Origin: Lactococcus garvieae
GTDB lineage: Bacteria; Bacillota; Bacilli; Lactobacillales; Streptococcaceae
Length of the DNA: 64,000 nucleotides
Direction of reading: 5' to 3'
NCBI RefSeq assembly: GCF_016027715.1
Contig: NZ_CP065691.1
Location: 1,893,954-1,957,953, forward strand
In this document: piece by piece, positions 49,184 to 59,632 of the stretch
Layout of the letters: each line of letters starts with the position of its first letter
Numbering within the stretch: position 1 is the first letter of the stretch
Position numbers and translations under genes: made by a program
The notes under the pieces: generated by a model
Database searches by the model: none
What the model saw: only the letters and a program-made list of their open reading frames with translations
What the model was told of the DNA's origin: nothing

Positions 49184-49564
49184 ATGGGTTACCGTAAACT
49201 TGGACGCACATCTTCACAACGTAAAGCTATGCTTCGTGATTTGACAACAGATCTTCTTATCAACGAAACTATCGTTACAACTGAAGCTCGTGCTAAAGAA
49301 ATCCGTAAAACAGTTGAAAAGATGATCACTCTTGGTAAACGTGGTGACTTGCACGCTCGTCGTCAAGCCGCAGCTTACGTTCGTAACGAAGTCGCTATTA
49401 AAGATTTCAACGAAGAAACTGAAACTTTCCCAACTGCACTTCAAAAATTGTTCGACGATATTGCTAAACGCTACGAAGGCCGTAACGGTGGTTACACTCG
49501 TATCTTGAAAGTTGAACCACGTCGTGGTGATGCTGCCCCTATGGCAATCATCGAGCTTGTTTAA
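49184..49564 (+). CDS. rplQ: 50S ribosomal protein L17
   Basis: This 126-residue L17 begins [25 protein letters not shown] and ends [24 protein letters not shown]. It lies near the tunnel exit. CAGGAGG precedes the start. It is the last gene of the ribosomal cluster and is followed by an unusual structured 3' region. Confidence 0.97.
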
Positions 49565-49599
49565 GATTAGTTCGGATTGAATAATATATAAGATTACTT

Positions 49600-49722
49600 A
49601 TTGAGTGTTATGATGATGGCGCTGTGTTTGAGTTGACGTATAGACGTCGAGTAGCACTGCTTAGTCTAGCTCTGTCTACCGAAATTTTTATTTCGGTAGT
49701 TCACTCAATATGTTTTTTTTTT
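49600..49722 (+). terminator. Large structured terminator region after rplQ
   Basis: ATTGAGTG (49600-49607) pairs with CACTCAAT (49702-49709), directly before a run of ten T. Inside the loop CTACCGAAAT/ATTTCGGTAG forms a 10-bp stem, and TTGACG/CGTCGA a smaller one. The outer stem closes a branched structure of about 110 bases, much larger than a common terminator. It may be both terminator and 3' processing or regulatory element. Confidence 0.6.
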
Positions 49723-49742
49723 GCATTTTTACAAAATATTTA

Positions 49743-49773
49743 GAGCCTTTTTTATATTGAAAAGGCTTTTTTA
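49743..49773 (+). terminator. Second terminator after rplQ
   Basis: AGCCTTTT pairs with AAAAGGCT, followed by T. The rest of the gap to 50225 (about 450 bases) shows no recognisable gene. A TATAAT at about 50192-50197 may serve the next gene. Confidence 0.75.
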
Positions 49774-50225
49774 ATTTTATTTATTTCAGTTGGGTTCTCA
49801 GTAGAATAATAGGATTAAATGATTTTTGGGAGGTAGCCAGTAAGCATTAATCTTCTTCTCGTAATTTCTACCTACGAATTTGGTCATATTCCTCGATAAA
49901 AAGAAGAAACCTTAGAATAAACTGCTATTAATAAACTGAGTTTAAAATATAAGTATGTTTTAGTAAGGTGAACGAAGGCTCCAATAGCATATCTAGAAGA
50001 AAGATACGTTGTATCCGTAGAGAAAGTGCATATAAATATAAAATAAAATTGTGAAATATACAATGTAAGTGATTCACTCAAGTGCTTTTAGGTCATAGAC
50101 TGAATGAAAAATAGTGTTTGCAGATAGTGAATCAATTTTGACGAAAAAAGTATCTTAATACTATTTACAATTTAACTTAGAACTCATTATGATATAATCA
50201 TATACAAGGAGGAGTGAGATAGTTT

Positions 50226-51560
50226 ATGAAAAATAAAAAACTTTTTTTATTGGGGCTAGTGTTGCTGGCAGGGGGAACTCTAAGTCATGTAGCAAGGGCT
50301 GAAATGGGTGATACATCAACTACACCTCAAGTCTTAGTTGAATCTACAAGTGATGACAGAACTGTGACTGAAGAAACTCCGAGCTCCTCTCAAAACGAAG
50401 AAAGCTCAATAACGGAAGAAACAAGTAGTACACAAGTTTCAAGTCAATCTTCAACATCATCTGATGAAGATACAGCAACTGAAAGCTCATCAAGCGCACG
50501 TAGCGAAACTGTAGAAAGTAACAGTTCCCAAAGCCAACCAAGTACAACTGAGCAAGAAAAACCGAAAGAACAAACGGTAAAAGTAAAGAAAACCTACATT
50601 ACGGTTTATCGGCTTTATAATACACGTAATAAAGAACATCTTTATACTACAGATAAAAATGAAATGACTGTTCTTCTTAAAATTTATAACTCTGATTGGA
50701 AGTATGAAGGCCCAGCATGGATGTCGCCAAACAGTACGGGTTCAAAGGTTTATCGTGTCTATAATTCTCGTTCAGGAGAACATCTCTATACAAAAGACAG
50801 TTATGAGGCAAAAATTCTTAGTTCAAAATTTGGCTGGAGAAATGAAGGTAAAAAATTCTATTCAGATACAAAAGGTTTATCAGTATATCGATTATTTAAT
50901 TCAGCTGCTGGCATTGGGGCTCACTTTGTTACACGAGACGCTTATGAGAAGAACTCTTTGGCTTCAAGGGGCTGGAAATATGAAGGGGTTGCATGGAAAA
51001 GTAGCAACACCTCATTAATTAATGACTACACGCCTCCTCAAACACCTCGGCCGCCAAAACCTCATGCCAAGCGTCCTACTTACTACTCTCAGTTAGATGC
51101 GCGTTGGGCAAATGTAAGATTAAATGACTCCCTCGTTAAAGTTTCCGGTTGTGTACCAACTAGCCTTGCTATGGTGTTCAGAGGAAGTTATGGGATGAAT
51201 GTGGATCCAGGTACTGTAGCTAAAAAAGCAGATGTTATCAGTAAACATAGTTTTGGCCTATCAGGAAAAGATTTAATCAATACTGCTAAAGCTTATGGTC
51301 ACTCTGTAGAGCAAATTAATAATAAAAGTAGAGCGATAACATTATTAAAAGCAGGTTATCCCCTCGTATTCTATATTAACGTAGGTATCGGCCATGCAGT
51401 GGTTACATATGGTTATTATAATGGGATTGTAGAGGTTTTTGACCCATATAACAGACAATTTTATCCCAGTGGACGTGCTTCTTTAAGCTCAATTTGGAAT
51501 AAACCATCTGCTGACACAATGGACTGGGATGCAGGTCGCCCAGTATTTGCAATTAAATAG
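50226..51560 (+). CDS. Secreted protein with DUF5648-type repeats and C39-like peptidase domain
   Basis: This 444-residue protein has a signal peptide (to about 26), a Ser/Thr/Glu-rich linker to about 115, then three YRLYN/YRVYN...EHLYT...E...W units at about 125-265, closely like the C-terminus of the GH25 muramidase at 13381. A proline-rich hinge leads to a C39-family, papain-like domain at about 288-444, with SGCVPTSLAMVF (Cys near 318), GHAVVTYGYYNG (His near 388) and DPYNRQF. The domain may cut wall peptides or another protein. The repeats may bind the wall. AAGGAGGAG precedes the start. Confidence 0.82.
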   Translation: MKNKKLFLLGLVLLAGGTLSHVARAEMGDTSTTPQVLVESTSDDRTVTEETPSSSQNEESSITEETSSTQVSSQSSTSSDEDTATESSSSARSETVESNSSQSQPSTTEQEKPKEQTVKVKKTYITVYRLYNTRNKEHLYTTDKNEMTVLLKIYNSDWKYEGPAWMSPNSTGSKVYRVYNSRSGEHLYTKDSYEAKILSSKFGWRNEGKKFYSDTKGLSVYRLFNSAAGIGAHFVTRDAYEKNSLASRGWKYEGVAWKSSNTSLINDYTPPQTPRPPKPHAKRPTYYSQLDARWANVRLNDSLVKVSGCVPTSLAMVFRGSYGMNVDPGTVAKKADVISKHSFGLSGKDLINTAKAYGHSVEQINNKSRAITLLKAGYPLVFYINVGIGHAVVTYGYYNGIVEVFDPYNRQFYPSGRASLSSIWNKPSADTMDWDAGRPVFAIK

Positions 51561-51571
51561 AAAGAGAAAAA

Positions 51572-51934
51572 ATGAAAAAGTATATTTTACTCTTAATAGT
51601 AGGGTTGACAATGCTTAATTTAACTGCATGTCAAAAATCAGAAAAAACAACAGAATATTCTCAAAGTACATCTACAGAGAAGAAAAGTTCTACTTCACCT
51701 TCATCCTCATCTGATAGCGAAAATTCAAGTAAACCATCAAGTTCTTCCAAAAAATCTATACATACTTCAGAAGGAAGTGAGTCAAATTTAGGGAAGGCAA
51801 GGATAGCAATTTATCAAGCAGGAATTGACTCTTCCGCACTTTCGGATGAAGACGTTCTTCGACTGTGGAATCAATCGGTAAAAGATAAAGTTGATTTTAT
51901 TTCTTTAGTTAAGGAGGAACTTGCGAAAAAATAA
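51572..51934 (+). CDS. Small lipoprotein with Ser-rich linker
   Basis: This 120-residue protein has a lipoprotein signal with lipobox LTAC near 17-20. A Ser/Lys/Thr-rich linker runs to about 68, followed by a folded-looking C-terminal part (GKARIAIYQAGIDSSALSDEDVLRLWNQSV). I do not recognise the domain. It starts 12 bases after the C39-like protein gene with GAAAGAGAAA before it, so the two are probably co-expressed and may act together on the outer surface. Confidence 0.65.
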   Translation: MKKYILLLIVGLTMLNLTACQKSEKTTEYSQSTSTEKKSSTSPSSSSDSENSSKPSSSSKKSIHTSEGSESNLGKARIAIYQAGIDSSALSDEDVLRLWNQSVKDKVDFISLVKEELAKK

Positions 51935-52013
51935 AAACTCCTTCACAAGACTTTATAAAAGATTTTAAATCATGAACCCCACTGTATGGAGTCTAACCGA
52001 CCTCCACTTTACT
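51934..52013. repeat. Left copy of tRNA-Thr 3' end repeat (candidate attachment-site scar)
   Basis: Bases here resemble 58045-58127. CTTTATAAAAGATTT, then CATGAA, CCACTG, ATGGA, AACC and GACCTCCAC follow in the same order, with a few changes and a three-base deletion. The right copy is the 3' half of tRNA-Thr(GGU) with its terminator; this copy lacks the 5' half, so it is a decayed duplicate. Such pairs mark the ends of elements inserted at tRNA genes. Confidence 0.65.
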
Positions 52014-52121
52014 TAAGAAGTTGGTAATTAATAAAAGTAGATAAACTAAAAGATATTTAAAGACATTGGGAGGTATAATCCTGATGCTTTTTTGTTTGAA
52101 AAAGACTAGTGTTTACTAAAT

Positions 52122-52373
52122 TTATTTATTGTTATTATCATTAGTTTTATTATAAGAAGTATTGGTAAGATACTTTTCAGGTGAAATCCATTCAAGTAGC
52201 CAAAGATTTGTCGCTTTATTATGAGGGGAAGGACAATGTTGTGCTTTGCCGGTAGTCGCTGTTACTCCTATTAACGGATTACTTAACATGGTTAAGGTGC
52301 CTTTCATGGTGGGAAAGGTATTATGAAGCTTCAACCCACATTCTTCAAAAGTTGTAAAACCTAAGGCAGTGGT
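52122..52373 (-). pseudogene. Unrecognised gene remnant
   Basis: The minus strand is open from just after a TAA to a TAA at 52122, encoding about 82 residues with gene-like composition (ALGFTTFEECGLKLHNTFP, later NKATNLWLLEWISPEKYL). The first ATG lies 13 codons in and has no good ribosome binding site. It looks like the C-terminal end of a lost gene. The remainder of the 51935-52863 gap holds the left repeat, a small hairpin near 52422-52450, a promoter at 52550 and no other gene that I can support. Confidence 0.3.
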
Positions 52374-52549
52374 TTAAATGTAAAATACTTTGCTTATGAA
52401 TAAAAAAATGAATTTAGGCGCCAGATGAGGAATAGCAATTCGTCATCTGAAGGGAAATTAATTTAAAAACTCAACAGTAACACTCATACTCGTTAATATC
52501 CCCCTTACATGATAACCCTTCACCTAAAAAATAAACGTTGTAGAAATAA

Positions 52550-52578
52550 TTGACAAATCTCATATCTAAGTGTATCCT
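52550..52578 (+). promoter_or_regulatory. Candidate promoter of the xrtG operon
   Basis: TTGACA and TATCCT with a 17-base spacer. It lies about 285 bases before the xrtG ATG, which implies a long untranslated leader if this is the promoter used. Confidence 0.5.
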
Positions 52579-52863
52579 ATTATAGACATATATTTAAAAT
52601 TGTACAAAATTTATAATGATATATTGTATTTACGATAACCTAGGTTAGGCAGGTTTAGATCTGAGATTTAAAGTTTCCCTAATAACCTAATAATATGAAG
52701 AAATATTTTATTCACGAACAACTGGAGTAGACAATAACCTCCTTCCTAGCAAACGCAAAGTATCACGAGTATCAAATATAAATACCAACGAGGCTTGATT
52801 GTTTGGAAAATTATTAAAGTAACTTGAATTACGTTTGTGTTATCTAGAAAAAAGGGAATAACA

Positions 52864-53466
52864 ATGACAGTGATGTTTTTAGTCGGTCTTGTAGTATGGG
52901 TGTACATACTATCTGTATTTCGAAGAGCTCAGCTTACAGCCTATTACTATATATGGGGAAGTATTGGTATATTTTTTATTCTTATTAAATTATCCAATCC
53001 TTTTTGGGTATGGGAATTGACTCAACTTATAACTGCTATAGTTGGCTCTATATCACATTTTTTTCATTTGGGACAATCTTTTACTCAATATGGAGGAATT
53101 TGGATTAATAATGTGAATTCACCTGTTTTTCTAACAATTGACTATGAATGCTCAGGAATAATAGAAATCGTGGCTTTGCTTTCTTTATTGCTATTTTTTC
53201 CAGTATACAGCCGCAAAGAGAAATTAGTTTATGCGCTATTAGGTAGTATTAGTATCACTATTGCTAATGTGGTAAGGCTAATGACAGTTATAATTATTGT
53301 AAATACCTATGGCAGTCAAAGCTTTTTTTGGGCGCATTCAATAATTGGCAGAATTATTTTTTATGTTATAACAATCATTATTTATTACTATACATTTACT
53401 TATACACAGGTTAATAGTGAAGGTTACAAACAATTATTAAAGAGATTTAGAAAGAGAGAAATATGA
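52864..53466 (+). CDS. xrtG: Exosortase family protein XrtG
   Basis: This 200-residue multi-span protein is a Gram-positive exosortase (family TIGR03110). The active-site triad expected of exosortases is visible: Cys in DYECSGIIE near 96, Arg in NVVRLMT near 138, and His in WAHSIIGR near 157. Exosortases are membrane transpeptidases that recognise a C-terminal sorting domain and are nearly always tied to glycan clusters. ATG 52864 is preceded by AAGGGA; an upstream GTG at 52837 is possible. The stop overlaps the next start, so the cluster is an operon. Confidence 0.87.
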   Translation: MTVMFLVGLVVWVYILSVFRRAQLTAYYYIWGSIGIFFILIKLSNPFWVWELTQLITAIVGSISHFFHLGQSFTQYGGIWINNVNSPVFLTIDYECSGIIEIVALLSLLLFFPVYSRKEKLVYALLGSISITIANVVRLMTVIIIVNTYGSQSFFWAHSIIGRIIFYVITIIIYYYTFTYTQVNSEGYKQLLKRFRKREI

Positions 53467-54824
53467 TAGGGCAACTGTTCCGATTAAGTTTATCTCAAAT
53501 GGGATTTTGGGCTTCGTGGACGATGATACCAATATTGGTTGAGATACTTCCTTCCATTATTTCTATCATTAGACTCCTTATCAGTACGCTTAGAAATAGG
53601 AAAAAAAAGGAGATGATGGCCTTTCCTGAAGTTAAGCCCTACGTTTCAATCATCATCCCTGTGTTTAACTCAAAAGATTCACTTTACGAATGTATAAAAT
53701 CAGTTGATAATTCAAGTTATCCCCATGAATTAATTCAAATTATATTAGTTGATAATAAACCTGGGGGAGATAAAGAGTGCTTCGACATCTTTGATCAGAT
53801 GCACAACCATGAGTTCAGCCATCTTAATATGGTCTATTTAAGAAGTGCACCCGGGAAAGCCAAAGCTTTAAATACAGCTATTTATAGCTGTATTGGTACT
53901 TATATTGTAAATATTGATAGTGATGGTATTCTAGAACGGGATGCCATCTCAAACCTTATTTTGAAATATGAGAACGACAGCAGTATAGCCGCAATGACAG
54001 GCGTCATCTTAACTCAAAAAGATATGATACAATCTGAAAAGTCTTTGTATAAAAGAATATTGCAGAAAAACGAATATTTTGAATATGCTCACTCTTTTTT
54101 GACTGGTAGAACTAAAGAAACAACGCATAATCAATTGTTTACAATGGCAGGTGCTTTTTCTAGTTTTAGAAAAGAAGTTTTAATTTCTACATTTTTATAT
54201 GATGTGGATACAGTTGGGGAAGACACCGATATGACCTTTCAAATCCGGGTCAACGGAGGGCAAAAGGTAGATATTTGTGAAGATGCTTTCTTTTTTGTTG
54301 ATCCTATAGAAGATTTAGATACGCTCTATATTCAGCGTCAAAGATGGCAACGTGGACAGTTAGAAGTTGTGGGTAATTACATGACTGGACGAAACCATAT
54401 CACAGGATTTTTTAAAGATTTTCTTATTCGTAGAATGATTATAGATCATACGTTTATTTTTCCAAAGATGATATGGCTATTTGCAAGTTTTATTCTTATA
54501 CAGTTTGGTTATTCATATCGAATGATTCTCCTGTCTTATGGGTTAATCTATTTACTTTATTTCTTTGTCTCGGTATTGAATACAATATGCACTCTTCTAT
54601 TTTTTAATAATTTCAAAGAGGAAAGACAATTCTATGTGAGAAACATATGGTGTTTATTAACTTTGCCTATTTACACTTTTATCTGTTCATGGTTTAGGTT
54701 GGTAGGAGTGCTCAATAGCATCACTTCGCCAGCTAAATGGGATACGAAAAAGTTTAAAGAGGAGAAAAAGCAGGTAATTGAGATGATAAGAAATGATTTT
54801 ATGAAAGTTAAAAAAGGAAGATAA
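53463..54824 (+). CDS. XrtG-associated processive glycosyltransferase (GT2)
   Basis: This 453-residue protein has an N-terminal membrane span, a GT2 domain with VSIIIPVFNSKDS near 60-72, NIDSDG near 157-162 and the QRQRWQRGQ (QxxRW) motif near 296-304, then several C-terminal spans. This layout fits processive synthases such as hyaluronan or cellulose synthases, and the exosortase-G-associated family TIGR03111. It overlaps xrtG by four bases. It probably makes a lipid-linked or extruded glycan used on the sorted protein. The sugar is unknown. Confidence 0.87.
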   Translation: MIGQLFRLSLSQMGFWASWTMIPILVEILPSIISIIRLLISTLRNRKKKEMMAFPEVKPYVSIIIPVFNSKDSLYECIKSVDNSSYPHELIQIILVDNKPGGDKECFDIFDQMHNHEFSHLNMVYLRSAPGKAKALNTAIYSCIGTYIVNIDSDGILERDAISNLILKYENDSSIAAMTGVILTQKDMIQSEKSLYKRILQKNEYFEYAHSFLTGRTKETTHNQLFTMAGAFSSFRKEVLISTFLYDVDTVGEDTDMTFQIRVNGGQKVDICEDAFFFVDPIEDLDTLYIQRQRWQRGQLEVVGNYMTGRNHITGFFKDFLIRRMIIDHTFIFPKMIWLFASFILIQFGYSYRMILLSYGLIYLLYFFVSVLNTICTLLFFNNFKEERQFYVRNIWCLLTLPIYTFICSWFRLVGVLNSITSPAKWDTKKFKEEKKQVIEMIRNDFMKVKKGR

Positions 54825-54832
54825 GGGTAGAA

Positions 54833-55201
54833 ATGAAAAGAATTTATAGATTAAAGTTTTATATCAACGCTAGCCATGCCATTCGGTGGGAAAAGGGAAT
54901 CGGGCAAAAACATAATCATACGTGGGAAATTGTGTGTGAGTTCAAAGGGTTAAATGACAAATTCATCTCCTTTTTTGAAGCAGAGAAGGTTGTAAGAAAT
55001 ATTTTAGATAAGTTCGAGGGTACTTACTTGAATGAGACACCTACGTTTAAAAATATCAATCCTACGCTTGAAAATGTTACAGAAGTCTTTTTTGAAAGGC
55101 TGAGTCAAGATATAAAAAAAGTAGACGGACAATTGGTACAAGTTGAAATAGCAGAGAAACCTACTCATATCTTTAGGATTGAGGCTGAGGATGATTTATG
55201 A
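54833..55201 (+). CDS. 6-pyruvoyl-tetrahydropterin-synthase-like protein of the XrtG locus
   Basis: This 122-residue protein resembles the PTPS/QueD fold. LKFYINASHAIRW near 6-18 and QKHNHTWEIVCEF near 24-36 hold the histidines that bind zinc in PTPS enzymes. The family tied to XrtG loci is TIGR03112. What a pterin-type enzyme does in a glycan and sorting locus is not known; it may have been recruited for another reaction. It lies eight bases after the GT2 gene, and its stop overlaps the next start, so it is part of the operon. Confidence 0.82.
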   Translation: MKRIYRLKFYINASHAIRWEKGIGQKHNHTWEIVCEFKGLNDKFISFFEAEKVVRNILDKFEGTYLNETPTFKNINPTLENVTEVFFERLSQDIKKVDGQLVQVEIAEKPTHIFRIEAEDDL

Positions 55202-56733
55202 GAGATAAATTTTTTTCTTTTAGTAATTCTTCCATACGGATATTATTCTATTTCTTATTTGCTTTAACATTTTATTTTTCGCTTACTTCTGTCAACCTCA
55301 CGGTGGGCGATAGTAAGTATTATGGAATGAGCACTACGATAGTAACTACAGTTTTCATTTTAGCTGCTCTTCTACTCATTGTAGCCGTTGCGACTTTTAA
55401 CAGTCTAAGAAAATTTTTATACTTCATCTTCTGGGAAAAAGGCTTGCTGACCTCCCTATGTATTTTGTTAATTGTTATCGTCCTTCAAATAACATTTGTC
55501 TACTTGGTACACCCAGCTATAGGTTTTGACGTTGGAGCCATACATGAGGCTTTAACTAATACTTGGGATCCTGAAATTAAGGCATACTATAGTATGTACC
55601 CGAATAATATGCTTATTTTGTTGTTACAACATGGGCTATCCACTGTATTTAATAGTAATTCTTGGCTTTTCTTTGACCTTATCACACTACTTTTAGTAGA
55701 TTTATCTGTTTTATTTAATATCTCAACAGTTTATGTAATCGATAAAAAATATATTGTACCGGCTATTTACATTCATTCCTTATGGCTGCTGGCCTTTCCT
55801 ATGATAATTATCCCTTATACGGATACATGGGTTATCCCCTTTGTCTCGGGATATTTATTGTCCTACAGTATTATTGCATTTGGAAAATGTAAAAATATTT
55901 ACAAATACTTTGCCGCGCTTACTTTTGGGATTTGTTTAATCACTTCATATTTTATGAAGCCTTCGGCTATTATACCAGTCATTGCCATTATTATCATAGA
56001 AATTTTATTTACTTTCAAGACCAAGAGACAACCAGAAAACAAGCTTTTTTTAAATAAGCTTTCATATCTTATAATGTTGCTCTCTACGGTAATTGCATTA
56101 TGGGGGATTGGAAAATTTGTAAATCAGCAGACCTATATTGAAGTGGATCCCAATCGAAGCATCCCTGTTTTACATTTCATGAATATGGGGTTATCTAATG
56201 AAGGTGGATATAACCCTGAAGATGCATTAATGATGGGTAAATTACCAACTAAAAAAGAAAGAATAGACTATTCCAAAAAAAATATAAAGAAAAGATTACA
56301 GGAAAAGGGATTAGGTGGTTACCTTGTTTTTCTTCTGAATAAACATTCTAATAATACCTCTGATGGCACTTTTGCTTGGCAAAAGGAGGGACATTTCATA
56401 AGCAATGAAAAACAAACTGTAAAAATAGATGATTTTTCGAGTGCTATAAAGTCATTTTTCTACTTGTATGGTGAGCATATCTCCGATTACAGGTTTATTG
56501 CTCAAGTCATTTGGCTCATAATACTTAGTCTCATTTTATTTGGTGGCATAGAGAATATAAAATTTAAACAAATTTTAAGGTTAGGTATAATTGGAGGATT
56601 TCTTTATCTTCTACTATTTGAAGGTGGACGGAGTCGTTATCTTATCCAGTTTTTACCATTAATACTTATCTTTGCCTCGCTAAGCAGTGCCAAAGCTTTA
56701 ACCAATATTAAGAGAGTATTTAGTTGGAAATAA
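55198..56733 (+). CDS. XrtG-associated multi-span GT-C-like membrane protein
   Basis: This 511-residue protein has about twelve hydrophobic segments, with an outside loop after the third (HPAIGFDVGAIHEAL near 104-118, an acidic site as in GT-C enzymes) and NMLILLLQHGLS near 138. It fits the XrtG-associated glycosyltransferase family TIGR03766. It probably transfers a sugar from a lipid carrier to the sorted protein or its glycan outside the cell. It overlaps the PTPS-like gene by four bases. Confidence 0.82.
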   Translation: MRDKFFSFSNSSIRILFYFLFALTFYFSLTSVNLTVGDSKYYGMSTTIVTTVFILAALLLIVAVATFNSLRKFLYFIFWEKGLLTSLCILLIVIVLQITFVYLVHPAIGFDVGAIHEALTNTWDPEIKAYYSMYPNNMLILLLQHGLSTVFNSNSWLFFDLITLLLVDLSVLFNISTVYVIDKKYIVPAIYIHSLWLLAFPMIIIPYTDTWVIPFVSGYLLSYSIIAFGKCKNIYKYFAALTFGICLITSYFMKPSAIIPVIAIIIIEILFTFKTKRQPENKLFLNKLSYLIMLLSTVIALWGIGKFVNQQTYIEVDPNRSIPVLHFMNMGLSNEGGYNPEDALMMGKLPTKKERIDYSKKNIKKRLQEKGLGGYLVFLLNKHSNNTSDGTFAWQKEGHFISNEKQTVKIDDFSSAIKSFFYLYGEHISDYRFIAQVIWLIILSLILFGGIENIKFKQILRLGIIGGFLYLLLFEGGRSRYLIQFLPLILIFASLSSAKALTNIKRVFSWK

Positions 56734-56759
56734 CTTCATTTTATAGAAAAGAGTAAATA

Positions 56760-57494
56760 ATGTTGAAAAAAATAACCCTCATCTTATGTTTTATAATAGT
56801 ATCAATTATCCCCCTTACAGTGAGCGCCAGTTCACGAGATTATAACATCGCAATAGATGGTAACATGTCTGATTGGCAGGATAAGCCTAAAACAGTTATT
56901 ACCCCTTATGATAGTATTTATAATAATCATGAGGTTTCACTTCTTTCAGATGACAGTAACGTATATTTTTATGTGCAGATGGCTAAAGCTGGAGGTAACA
57001 ATACGATGATTACTTCTGAGTATATCTTAGACATAGGCGATACAGAATTTGCGATATTGATGCCGGATATTAATAATCCTTATTCAGGATTGCCAATCAC
57101 AAACGATACCTTAAAAATTGGAGAAAGTATGGCTATAGGGGTTGCAGCACAGTTACGTAAGGGAAGTAGTACAATCATACCTTCTCAGTATACCGTGCTC
57201 AATGATGCAAATGTGAAAGCCTATATAACGAGAACGCCTAATGATGATTCCTTTGTTGACGAAATGGAGATTCAAATTCCTTTCAGTACCTTAGGAATTG
57301 AAAACTCTACAAGTCAAACGATTAGTTTATCTAATCCCAATTTAGGAACTCAAGAAGCTACTATTTCAGGTGGAAGTACAGGGCCGATAGTATTAGCAGT
57401 CGTCGCTCTATTTCTTGCTGGTTTAGGTTATATGTATAAAGTGAAGAATAAACCAAATCTTTTTGCCAAAGTTTGGAGAAGAAGCGGAAAATAA
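56760..57494 (+). CDS. Firmicu-CTERM surface protein, probable target of XrtG
   Basis: This 244-residue protein has a signal peptide (to about 23, VSAS), an extracellular part that begins with the CBM9-like or DOMON-like pattern IAIDGNMSDWQDKP near 30-43, and a C-terminal sorting region. That region consists of GGSTGPIVLAVVALFLAGLGYMYK near 205-228 and a basic tail KNKPNLFAKVWRRSGK, as in the Firmicu-CTERM domain. It lies 26 bases after the membrane protein gene and is the last gene, followed by a terminator. It is probably the only local protein handled by XrtG and decorated with the locus glycan. Confidence 0.83.
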   Translation: MLKKITLILCFIIVSIIPLTVSASSRDYNIAIDGNMSDWQDKPKTVITPYDSIYNNHEVSLLSDDSNVYFYVQMAKAGGNNTMITSEYILDIGDTEFAILMPDINNPYSGLPITNDTLKIGESMAIGVAAQLRKGSSTIIPSQYTVLNDANVKAYITRTPNDDSFVDEMEIQIPFSTLGIENSTSQTISLSNPNLGTQEATISGGSTGPIVLAVVALFLAGLGYMYKVKNKPNLFAKVWRRSGK

Positions 57495-57565
57495 CTTCTA
57501 CTTGTTTGCACAAAAACAGAAAATCTGACAGACAAGTAAGCAGTTAAAATAAAATCGGGGAATAT

Positions 57566-57597
57566 TAAGGGTGAGTCAAGTCTCGCCCTTATTTTTT
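57566..57597 (+). terminator. Terminator of the xrtG operon
   Basis: TAAGGGTGAG pairs with CTCGCCCTTA around six bases, followed by a T-run. From here to the tRNA gene (57598-58087) I see no sure gene. Confidence 0.85.
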
Positions 57598-57664
57598 GTA
57601 TAGAGAAGAAAGTATAGAAGATCAAAAAGAATGTCAGAAAAGCCTTTGAGGGAATGTGATATAA

Positions 57665-57793
57665 TCTATTTATTCATATACTACATTTTTATCGTATTGT
57701 CATAGAAATGCGGAAAAATGTTTACAAAAAAAACAAGCTGTCAGTGAAGTTGCAATTTATGCTGAAGGAACCCCTTATTTTGCCCAAGAATAA
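57665..57793 (+). pseudogene. Possible coding remnant between xrtG locus and tRNA
   Basis: About 43 codons are open without a start codon, ending in AVSEVAIYAEGTPYFAQE, which reads like the end of a real protein. A different frame from 57708 to 57926 is open for 72 codons and is probably chance. I cannot name the gene. It would fit decayed material at the edge of an island. Confidence 0.2.
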
Positions 57794-58044
57794 GTTTTTG
57801 AAATTTCTACTCAAGTTATACATGAAATATTTTTTTCAGGCAATCGTTCAGATACACATAAGAGGAGTTGCAAAGCATTTTGAAATAATTATTGACTATG
57901 CAGTAGTCTTAGGTTATGTTATATAGAAGAAAACATAACCTAGATACCCCATCTCTATATGTTATAATCTTACTATAGGCCTTGGTTTGGTGAGTTTAAA
58001 AACGTATCCAAGGTCAAGGCAAACAGAACCATCCATAAAAAAAG

Positions 58045-58127
58045 AAAAAAGCCCTCCAAGGGCTTTATAAAAGATTTAAAACATGAATGCCACTGAATGG
58101 AATCGAACCATCGACCTCCACCTTACC
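58045..58127. repeat. Right copy of tRNA-Thr 3' end repeat
   Basis: This stretch covers the tRNA-Thr terminator (AAAGCCCTCCAAGGGCTTT) and the 3' half of the tRNA, and is matched by the decayed copy at 51934-52013. The two copies enclose the 6 kb xrtG region. Confidence 0.65.
58048..58066 (-). terminator. tRNA-Thr terminator
   Basis: On the minus strand AAAGCCCTTGGAGGGCTTT forms a stem, followed by T-runs. Confidence 0.85.
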
Positions 58128-58160
58128 ATGGTGTTGCTCTACCTACTGAGCTACAGCGGC
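58088..58160 (-). tRNA. tRNA-Thr (anticodon GGU)
   Basis: The minus strand folds into a cloverleaf of 73 bases. The acceptor stem is GCCGCTG/CAGTGGC, the D arm GCTC...GAGC, the anticodon arm CACC-ATGGTAA-GGTG with anticodon GGU, and the T arm GATGG-TTCGATT-CCATT. The discriminator base is A. CCA is not encoded. It reads ACC/ACU threonine codons. Its 3' half is duplicated at 51934-52013. Confidence 0.95.
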
Positions 58161-58270
58161 TAATTTTAATACTCCAGTTTATAATCTCATAAGCTAGAGT
58201 TAAACAATAATAATTTTAACAAAAATATACATAAAAGTCTATAAAAATAAGTAAAAGTGAGGACATAAAA

Positions 58271-59632
58271 ATAGCTAAGAAAAAATCAACATTTCTCTGT
58301 CAAGAGTGTGGCTACAAATCTGTCAAAAAACTGGGACGGTGTCCCAACTGTGGTGCTTGGGGTTCCTTTGTCGAAGAAGTTGCGGTGCAGGAAGTTAAAA
58401 ATCAGAGAGTAAGTCTTACGGGTGAGCATTCAAAACCGATGAAGCTTGATCAAGTTGAGCTTTTTGATACGCCTCGCGTGGAGACTGATTTGGGTGAATT
58501 TAATAGAGTATTGGGCGGAGGTGTTGTGCCCGGGAGCTTGGTACTCATCGGAGGAGATCCCGGAATCGGTAAATCCACGCTTTTACTCCAAGTCTCAACG
58601 CAACTGGCTTCTCGAGGACGGGTCCTCTATGTAAGTGGTGAAGAGTCCGCTCAACAAATTAAGCTTCGCGCAGAACGTTTGGGCGATATTGACACGGATT
58701 TCTATCTTTATGCGGAAACAAATATGCAAAGTATTCGCAATGAGGTTGAACGCTTGCAACCCGATTTTTTGATTGTTGACTCGATTCAAACAATCATGAC
58801 ACCTGAAATTCAAAGCACACAAGGTTCAGTGAGCCAAGTCCGTGAAGTCACGGGAGAACTCATGCAGCTGGCTAAAACAAATGATATTGCAACCTTTATT
58901 GTTGGACATGTGACAAAAGAAGGGCAGCTTGCAGGGCCTCGAATGTTAGAGCATATGGTAGATACTGTGTTGTATTTTGAGGGAGAACGACAAAATACTT
59001 TTCGGATTTTACGCGCTGTTAAAAATCGTTTTGGTTCGACGAATGAAATAGGGATTTTTGAAATGCAGGGCACAGGTTTAGTCGAAGTAACCAATCCCAG
59101 TGAGGTCTTTTTAGAAGAACGGTTGGAAGGTTCCACAGGTTCAGCCATCGTTTGTGCACTAGAAGGAACACGTCCGATTTTAGTTGAGATACAGGCCTTG
59201 ACAACACCTACCATGTTTGGAAATGCTAAAAGAACGACTTCTGGTTTGGACTTCAATCGCGTAAGTTTGATTATGGCGGTACTTGAAAAACGTGCAGGCT
59301 TTCTTTTACAGCAACAAGATGCCTATTTAAAATCAGCAGGGGGTGTTAAACTGGATGAGCCTGCTATTGACTTAGCTGTAGCAATTGCGATTGCTTCAAG
59401 CTACAAAGAAGAGCCCACAGATGCGCGTGAGTGTTTTATTGGTGAAATTGGCCTTACTGGGGAGATACGTCGTGTAACGCGTATGGAACAGCGTTTAAAT
59501 GAAGCCAGTAAGTTAGGATTTAAAAAAGTTTATGCGCCTAAAAATAGTTTGGCGGGTGTCGATATCCCAGATAATTTAAAAGTTATTGGTGTAACGACTC
59601 TGTCAGAATGTTTGAAAAAAGTATTTGGATAA
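58271..59632 (+). CDS. radA: DNA repair protein RadA with apparent AUA start codon
   Basis: This protein of about 453 residues has an N-terminal zinc finger (CQECGYKS...CPNCGAW), a RecA-like core with Walker [11 protein letters not shown] near 94-103, the RadA motif [11 protein letters not shown] near 250, and a Lon-like C-terminal domain. It acts as a helicase or branch-migration factor in recombination and transformation. Homology starts at [17 protein letters not shown], whose first codon is ATA at 58271, with GAGGA seven bases upstream. No ATG, GTG or TTG lies in frame between the upstream stop and this point. A start at ATG 58439 or GTG 58385 would remove the zinc finger. Confidence 0.88.

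Follow-up and report, generated by a model that had tools for sequence, protein, structure and literature searches.

The window analysed here, 64,000 nucleotides of a Lactococcus garvieae genome (contig NZ_CP065691.1, positions 1,893,954 to 1,957,953), contains what is, judged by sequence, a further and intact member of the computationally defined XrtG/Firmicu-CTERM system, since five family models are matched, key residues are kept, and XrtG and the target each occur once in the genome. Comparison of XrtG loci across hundreds of genomes links them to genes of the biofilm messenger cyclic-di-GMP (c-di-GMP), a link that is new here and suggests that these gene kits work under c-di-GMP control. 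The joint explanation we favour, with a probability of roughly 45%, is that a cassette inserted at tRNA-Thr would join a clipped target protein to a surface glycan or lipid made by its own glycosyltransferases, probably gated by c-di-GMP.

A preliminary description had proposed a compact locus encoding an exosortase, a GT2, a PTPS-like protein, a TIGR03766 membrane protein and a target. The complete set is indeed present, as five ORFs on the + strand in which neighbours share 4 nt or sit 8–26 nt apart (table 1). The assignment to NCBIfam families also held when the models were searched: bit scores against cut-offs were 197/102.75 for TIGR03110, 561/364 for TIGR03111, 120/69 for TIGR03112, 665/500 for TIGR03766 and 161/50 for TIGR04145, and as all lie well above the curated cut-offs, chance is excluded as the source of the five matches. 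Pfam concurs on the exosortase, the GT2 and the PTPS-like protein; the TIGR03766 protein and the target matched no Pfam family over cut-off, and Rfam detected no riboswitch in the locus. The whole genome (2.11 Mb, 2 contigs) encodes one XrtG. Across 80 named XrtG loci the five-gene set moves together, with varying gene order.

Table 1. Features of the XrtG locus and its borders (window coordinates).
Feature	Coordinates	Strand	Remarks
Left direct repeat	51926..52012	-	degenerate tRNA-Thr 3' half and downstream flank; ends at anticodon loop
Promoter-like site	52550..52578	+	TTGACA-17-TATCCT, 5' of operon; match to consensus only
xrtG exosortase (TIGR03110)	52864..53466	+	ATG start with plausible ribosome-binding site AAAAAGGGA; alternative start GTG 52837
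TIGR03111 membrane GT2	53463..54824	+	DxD (152-154), ED (253-254), Q291-xx-R294-W295
TIGR03112 PTPS-like T-fold protein	54833..55201	+	His15/27/29 retained, catalytic Cys and Asp-His gone
TIGR03766 polytopic membrane protein	55198..56733	+	predicted fold GT-C-like, conserved Asp111
Firmicu-CTERM target	56760..57494	+	signal peptide, probable CBM9/DOMON-like beta domain, GGSTGP motif, TM helix, basic tail
Terminator-like hairpin and T run	57566..57591	+	directly 3' of target gene
Intact tRNA-Thr(GGT)	58088..58160	-	right border of insertion

In the exosortase, Cys96, Arg138 and His158 (numbered from the ATG) occur in every one of the 81 aligned rows, bearing out the earlier statement that these residues are in place. 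The single target proposed at the same time was likewise recovered: TIGR04145 has one match genome-wide, in the gene that closes the xrtG operon with three genes between, and a model of the tail alone found that one match and no further Firmicu-CTERM tails in the genome even at E ≤ 10. The tail runs from GGSTGP through a TM helix (208–229) to a basic end. Of 90 target ORFs, some of them fragments, 59 carry a GGSTG-type motif and 14 more have G-x-S-T variants.

The motifs of the GT2 (DxD, ED and QxxRW) are invariant in every covered row of an alignment of 81 rows, in keeping with the QxxRW noted previously, and predict an enzyme of the processive type. Against the PgaC/IcaA model TIGR03937 it scores 110 bits (E 1.3e-31) for a cut-off of 422, leaving the equivalog threshold unmet, and it shares 25% identity over 271 residues with a PgaC-like GT2 elsewhere in the L. 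garvieae genome. In the TIGR03766 protein, Asp111 is kept in 69 of 70 covered rows and is a candidate GT-C catalytic acid. This pair of glycosyltransferases may glycosylate the target; just as well, their product could be a polysaccharide independent of the target or an acceptor linked to lipid.

Solved structures searched by sequence with XrtG, TIGR03766 and target profiles gave no meaningful match. Confident AlphaFold2 models of the target and the TIGR03766 protein (mean pLDDT 86 and 89, respectively), built from window and locus sequences, were compared with known structures using Foldseek. The best matches of the TIGR03766 model were STT3, ArnT, PMT1-2, ALG3 and PimE; the top seven PDB matches were all GT-C, with probabilities of 0.90–1.00 but E-values of 0.02–0.17 and low TM-scores. 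For the target, the best matches were ethylbenzene dehydrogenase gamma, CBM9 modules, nitrite oxidoreductase chain C and a putative carbohydrate-binding protein, all with DOMON/CBM9-like folds. The CBM9 entries 7nwo, 7nwn, 1i82 and 4jpq were among them, with probabilities of 0.80–0.96 and weak E-values of 0.008–0.04. Since no E-value reached 0.001 for either model and TM-scores were about 0.3–0.4, a CBM9/DOMON-like target ectodomain and a GT-C-like TIGR03766 fold are probable rather than proven.

Judged by the catalytic residues of QueD/PTPS enzymes, the third gene product combines retained and lost sites. The zinc histidines of E. coli QueD (4ntk) and eukaryotic PTPS align with H15, H27 and H29, which are present in the L. 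garvieae protein and in 71–72 of 76 aligned rows, and the pterin/purine anchor position is taken by E108, with an acidic residue (E or D) there in 71 of the 76 rows. Another residue replaces the catalytic Cys in each of the 73 testable rows, none of which has a Cys in that segment; no row shows His at the position of QueD His71, and the score against the QueD model is 38 bits for a cut-off of 89. With the catalytic residues gone in all relatives, the zinc histidines notwithstanding, the alignment indicates a catalytically dead protein rather than a pterin enzyme of known kind. The label 'PTPS-like' given in the preliminary description must be corrected to this extent: it fits the sequence similarity and the zinc histidines, but the catalytic Cys and Asp-His are absent. 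In clostridial XrtG loci, the PTPS-like domain forms the N-terminus of a protein of approximately 1000 aa, the rest of which belongs to the Pfam PTPS_related membrane family, presumably GT-C-like; in L111 and L122, it instead closes a longer protein, which in L111 looks like a membrane sensor. Binding or regulation beside membrane glycosyltransferases would be the role that fits best. The gene is not indispensable everywhere, as XrtG systems without it exist (L035/L036, L046, L047, L049, L053 and L088). Among these, leaving L088 aside, some have two target genes and some share the genome with a second XrtG system.

In Enterococcus (L048 and L054), the TIGR03766 gene and the target gene are separated by EAL and GGDEF genes; such genes sit directly upstream of the XrtG operon in L096 and L106 and flank it on both sides in L125. 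Further XrtG loci have them approximately 4 kb downstream, some (e.g. L052) apparently within a gts-like GT2 operon. Several clostridial loci encode, between the GT2 and the PTPS-like gene, a membrane protein resembling a degenerate GGDEF, by weak similarity and in two cases with no Pfam match. One of the loci named above, L106, is filed under the archaeon Methanovirga and resembles an archaeal XrtG, a reading rejected here: besides a full XrtG set its contig carries GGDEF, EAL and Mga-type regulators, and on account of the GGDEF and Mga-type regulators it probably comes from Firmicutes and was misbinned.

Co-occurrence across genomes follows the same direction. In a Lactobacillales sample, GGDEF was present in 20 of 20 genomes with XrtG over cut-off versus 146 of 378 others. 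For Lactobacillaceae, the counts were 56 of 58 genomes with XrtG and 93 of 243 without (Fisher p 8e-18, shared ancestry ignored), and such p-values overstate the case because species are not independent. The contrast with a SecA2 control is clear: in a hand count of 301 Lactobacillaceae genomes, GGDEF accompanied SecA2 (over cut-off) in 23 of 56 against a background of 149 of 301, with no enrichment. The gts operon of L. acidophilus, in which a c-di-GMP-binding EAL protein is encoded next to a BcsA/PgaC-like GT2 (PMC6123363), offers an experimental precedent for c-di-GMP control in the lactic acid group. Titles and abstracts of the literature searched on exosortases and c-di-GMP did not join XrtG with this nucleotide.

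The L. garvieae XrtG locus itself contains no c-di-GMP genes. Elsewhere in the genome there are three GGDEF genes, each with EAL neighbours (L165 5760-11639; L166 6616-8610; L167 6354-10256). One set lies by a 710-aa GT2 and a UDP-GlcNAc 2-epimerase and one in a gts/PgaC-like operon, so c-di-GMP has other clients in this genome too, and the GGDEF genes likely have GT2 operons as other partners. The unit had been described as self-contained, which is right for its full gene set and one dedicated target but too strong for its control, since XrtG systems co-occur with c-di-GMP genes, which some species encode within the operon and L. garvieae at other places in its genome. Inside the genus, GGDEF fails on its own as a tracker of XrtG (GGDEF in 6 of 19 genomes, XrtG in 1 of 19, five congeners having GGDEF without XrtG). 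GGDEF is rare in Streptococcaceae, with 4 genomes among the matches listed in the Lactobacillales sample.

The XrtG cassette was apparently gained horizontally by insertion at tRNA-Thr. In a local alignment, the left repeat matches the intact tRNA-Thr region at 58038-58126; separate comparisons gave 83% identity over 62 nt (E 2.5e-10) and, for the ungapped repeat D1, 80% over 44 nt. GC content is 0.31–0.34 within the locus versus 0.35–0.42 outside, XrtG is present in only one of 19 congeners, and two other genomes (G003 and G005) have rplQ, tRNA-Thr and radA in order at an insert-free site. A repeat that breaks at the anticodon loop would be the pattern left by site-specific insertion into a tRNA gene. 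No integrase is left, 51935-52836 and 57495-58384 containing no ORF of at least 80 aa, so that the mode of insertion is inferred.

In the explanation we favour, one cell-surface glycan or glycolipid would be made jointly by the GT2, drawing on a nucleotide sugar, and by the GT-C-like TIGR03766 protein, drawing on a polyprenyl-phosphate sugar. Sec would export the target, which its C-terminal helix would retain. XrtG would then cut near GGSTGP using Cys96 with Arg138 and His158 and hand the new target C-terminus to this glycan or lipid, thereby displaying the CBM9-like domain on the surface, where it could bind polysaccharide. Glycan synthesis would probably be gated by c-di-GMP, and the catalytically dead PTPS-like protein may serve the glycosyltransferases as an adaptor or a regulatory subunit. 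Against this explanation stand the low Foldseek scores, the lack of c-di-GMP genes in the locus itself, the other likely partners of the GGDEF genes in this genome, the five congeners that have GGDEF but no XrtG, and the XrtG systems that lack the PTPS-like gene. We consider it quite unlikely that the dead PTPS-like T-fold protein senses a guanine nucleotide and thereby switches on the glycosyltransferase pair, which would make XrtG systems a new class of protein-glycan conjugation machines under c-di-GMP control.

The same genes could instead make a free polysaccharide that the processed CBM9-like protein holds non-covalently at the cell surface, an account that is possible though doubtful. 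The PgaC-like character of the GT2 (E 1.3e-31), the CBM9-like target and a c-di-GMP link typical of exopolysaccharides all accord with it, as does the stabilization of cell-surface polysaccharide by PEP-CTERM proteins in other bacteria (PMC12188702); however, the GT2 scores far below the PgaC cut-off and is distant from the PgaC-like GT2 of the same genome, and the CBM9 match is weak. The preliminary description had read the locus as a surface-protein glycosylation and sorting unit; on such a reading, the glycosyltransferases would build a glycan to be placed directly on target side chains, XrtG merely trimming the C-terminus. This would suit the resemblance of the TIGR03766 fold to the protein glycosyltransferases STT3 and PMT, the one dedicated target, and the position by tRNA-Thr/radA, in two sibling species, of accessory Sec with GtfA/GtfB, a protein-glycosylation/export system. 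We nevertheless think it unlikely, as a GT2 of the QxxRW type suggests a polymer and exopolysaccharide genes are the usual association of exosortases (PMC12188702). Finally, the rarity of XrtG among congeners, the low GC and the degenerate left repeat might indicate a decayed or silent acquired cassette with no function in L. garvieae, but five intact frames with all key residues kept, tight gene spacing and a terminator after the last gene make this very improbable.

With other XrtG/Firmicu-CTERM systems, the L. garvieae locus shares all five components over cut-off and one target in the operon. It differs in that its target ends the operon, whereas in most Lactobacillaceae loci the target precedes xrtG, in the one CBM9-like domain of that target where many Lactobacillaceae targets have two domains, and in being an insert at tRNA-Thr. 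Exosortase/PEP-CTERM and archaeosortase systems have in common with it a Cys-Arg-His membrane enzyme, a tripartite C-terminal signal and a link to polysaccharide genes, but use a PEP or PGF motif; the XrtG system has GGSTGP, a single target and a Gram-positive host without an outer membrane. PgaC/BcsA-type synthases and the L. acidophilus gts operon (gtsA-gtsB-pdeB) also pair a membrane GT2 bearing QxxRW with GGDEF/EAL, yet lack a GT-C-like partner or exosortase, and the XrtG-locus GT2 falls far under the PgaC equivalog cut-off. QueD/6-pyruvoyl-tetrahydropterin synthase resembles the PTPS-like protein in sequence, zinc histidines and the acidic anchor-position residue, from which the latter departs by its lost catalytic Cys and Asp-His and its glycosyltransferase partner genes. 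The accessory Sec (SecA2/GtfA/GtfB) serine-rich-repeat system is also a surface-glycoprotein module by the same tRNA-Thr/radA in two sibling species, although its proteins and mechanism are unrelated.

XrtG has been known for more than a decade from comparative genomics, and the literature searched contains no tested substrate, glycan or regulator and no biochemical result or enzymology for it. This agrees with the earlier remark that its enzymology is not established; in that literature, XrtG appears in one relevant paper, at transcript level only. L. plantarum strains that self-aggregate and induce interferon show higher transcripts of a four-gene XrtG system, in a study with apparently no mutant of that system (PMC12854382). 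A cyanobacterium with its exosortase deleted lost adhesion to its own polysaccharide (PMC12188702). With one enzyme and one target, such a cassette brings exosortase chemistry within reach in lactic acid bacteria, which include many safe laboratory strains, and our main additions, both computational, are directly testable: the c-di-GMP association predicts how the system is switched on, and a role is predicted for the catalytically dead PTPS-like protein. Also new are the insertion at tRNA-Thr and the predicted folds, CBM9/DOMON-like for the target and GT-C-like for TIGR03766.

The interval from rplQ to radA (window 49564-58385; loci L147-L157) is a variable slot for surface proteins in the genus. 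In G011, it holds only relatives of the two left neighbours of the insert (C39 peptidase and lipoprotein), and in two genomes of sibling species (G007 and G009) an accessory Sec system (SecA2, GtfA, GtfB, Asp2) adjoins tRNA-Thr/radA, with rplQ outside the stretches compared. The interval of G017 contains an ORF of approximately 1750 aa. Between tRNA-Thr and radA (L147-L151), sibling species have a second, broken tRNA-Thr-like 5' fragment by radA, absent from the L. garvieae genome. In the window, 50226-51934, left of the insert, encodes a secreted protein with DUF5648 and a C39-like peptidase and a small Ser-rich lipoprotein, the two with relatives in G011, and an L17 ribosomal protein downstream element (RF01708) follows rplQ at 49602-49696.
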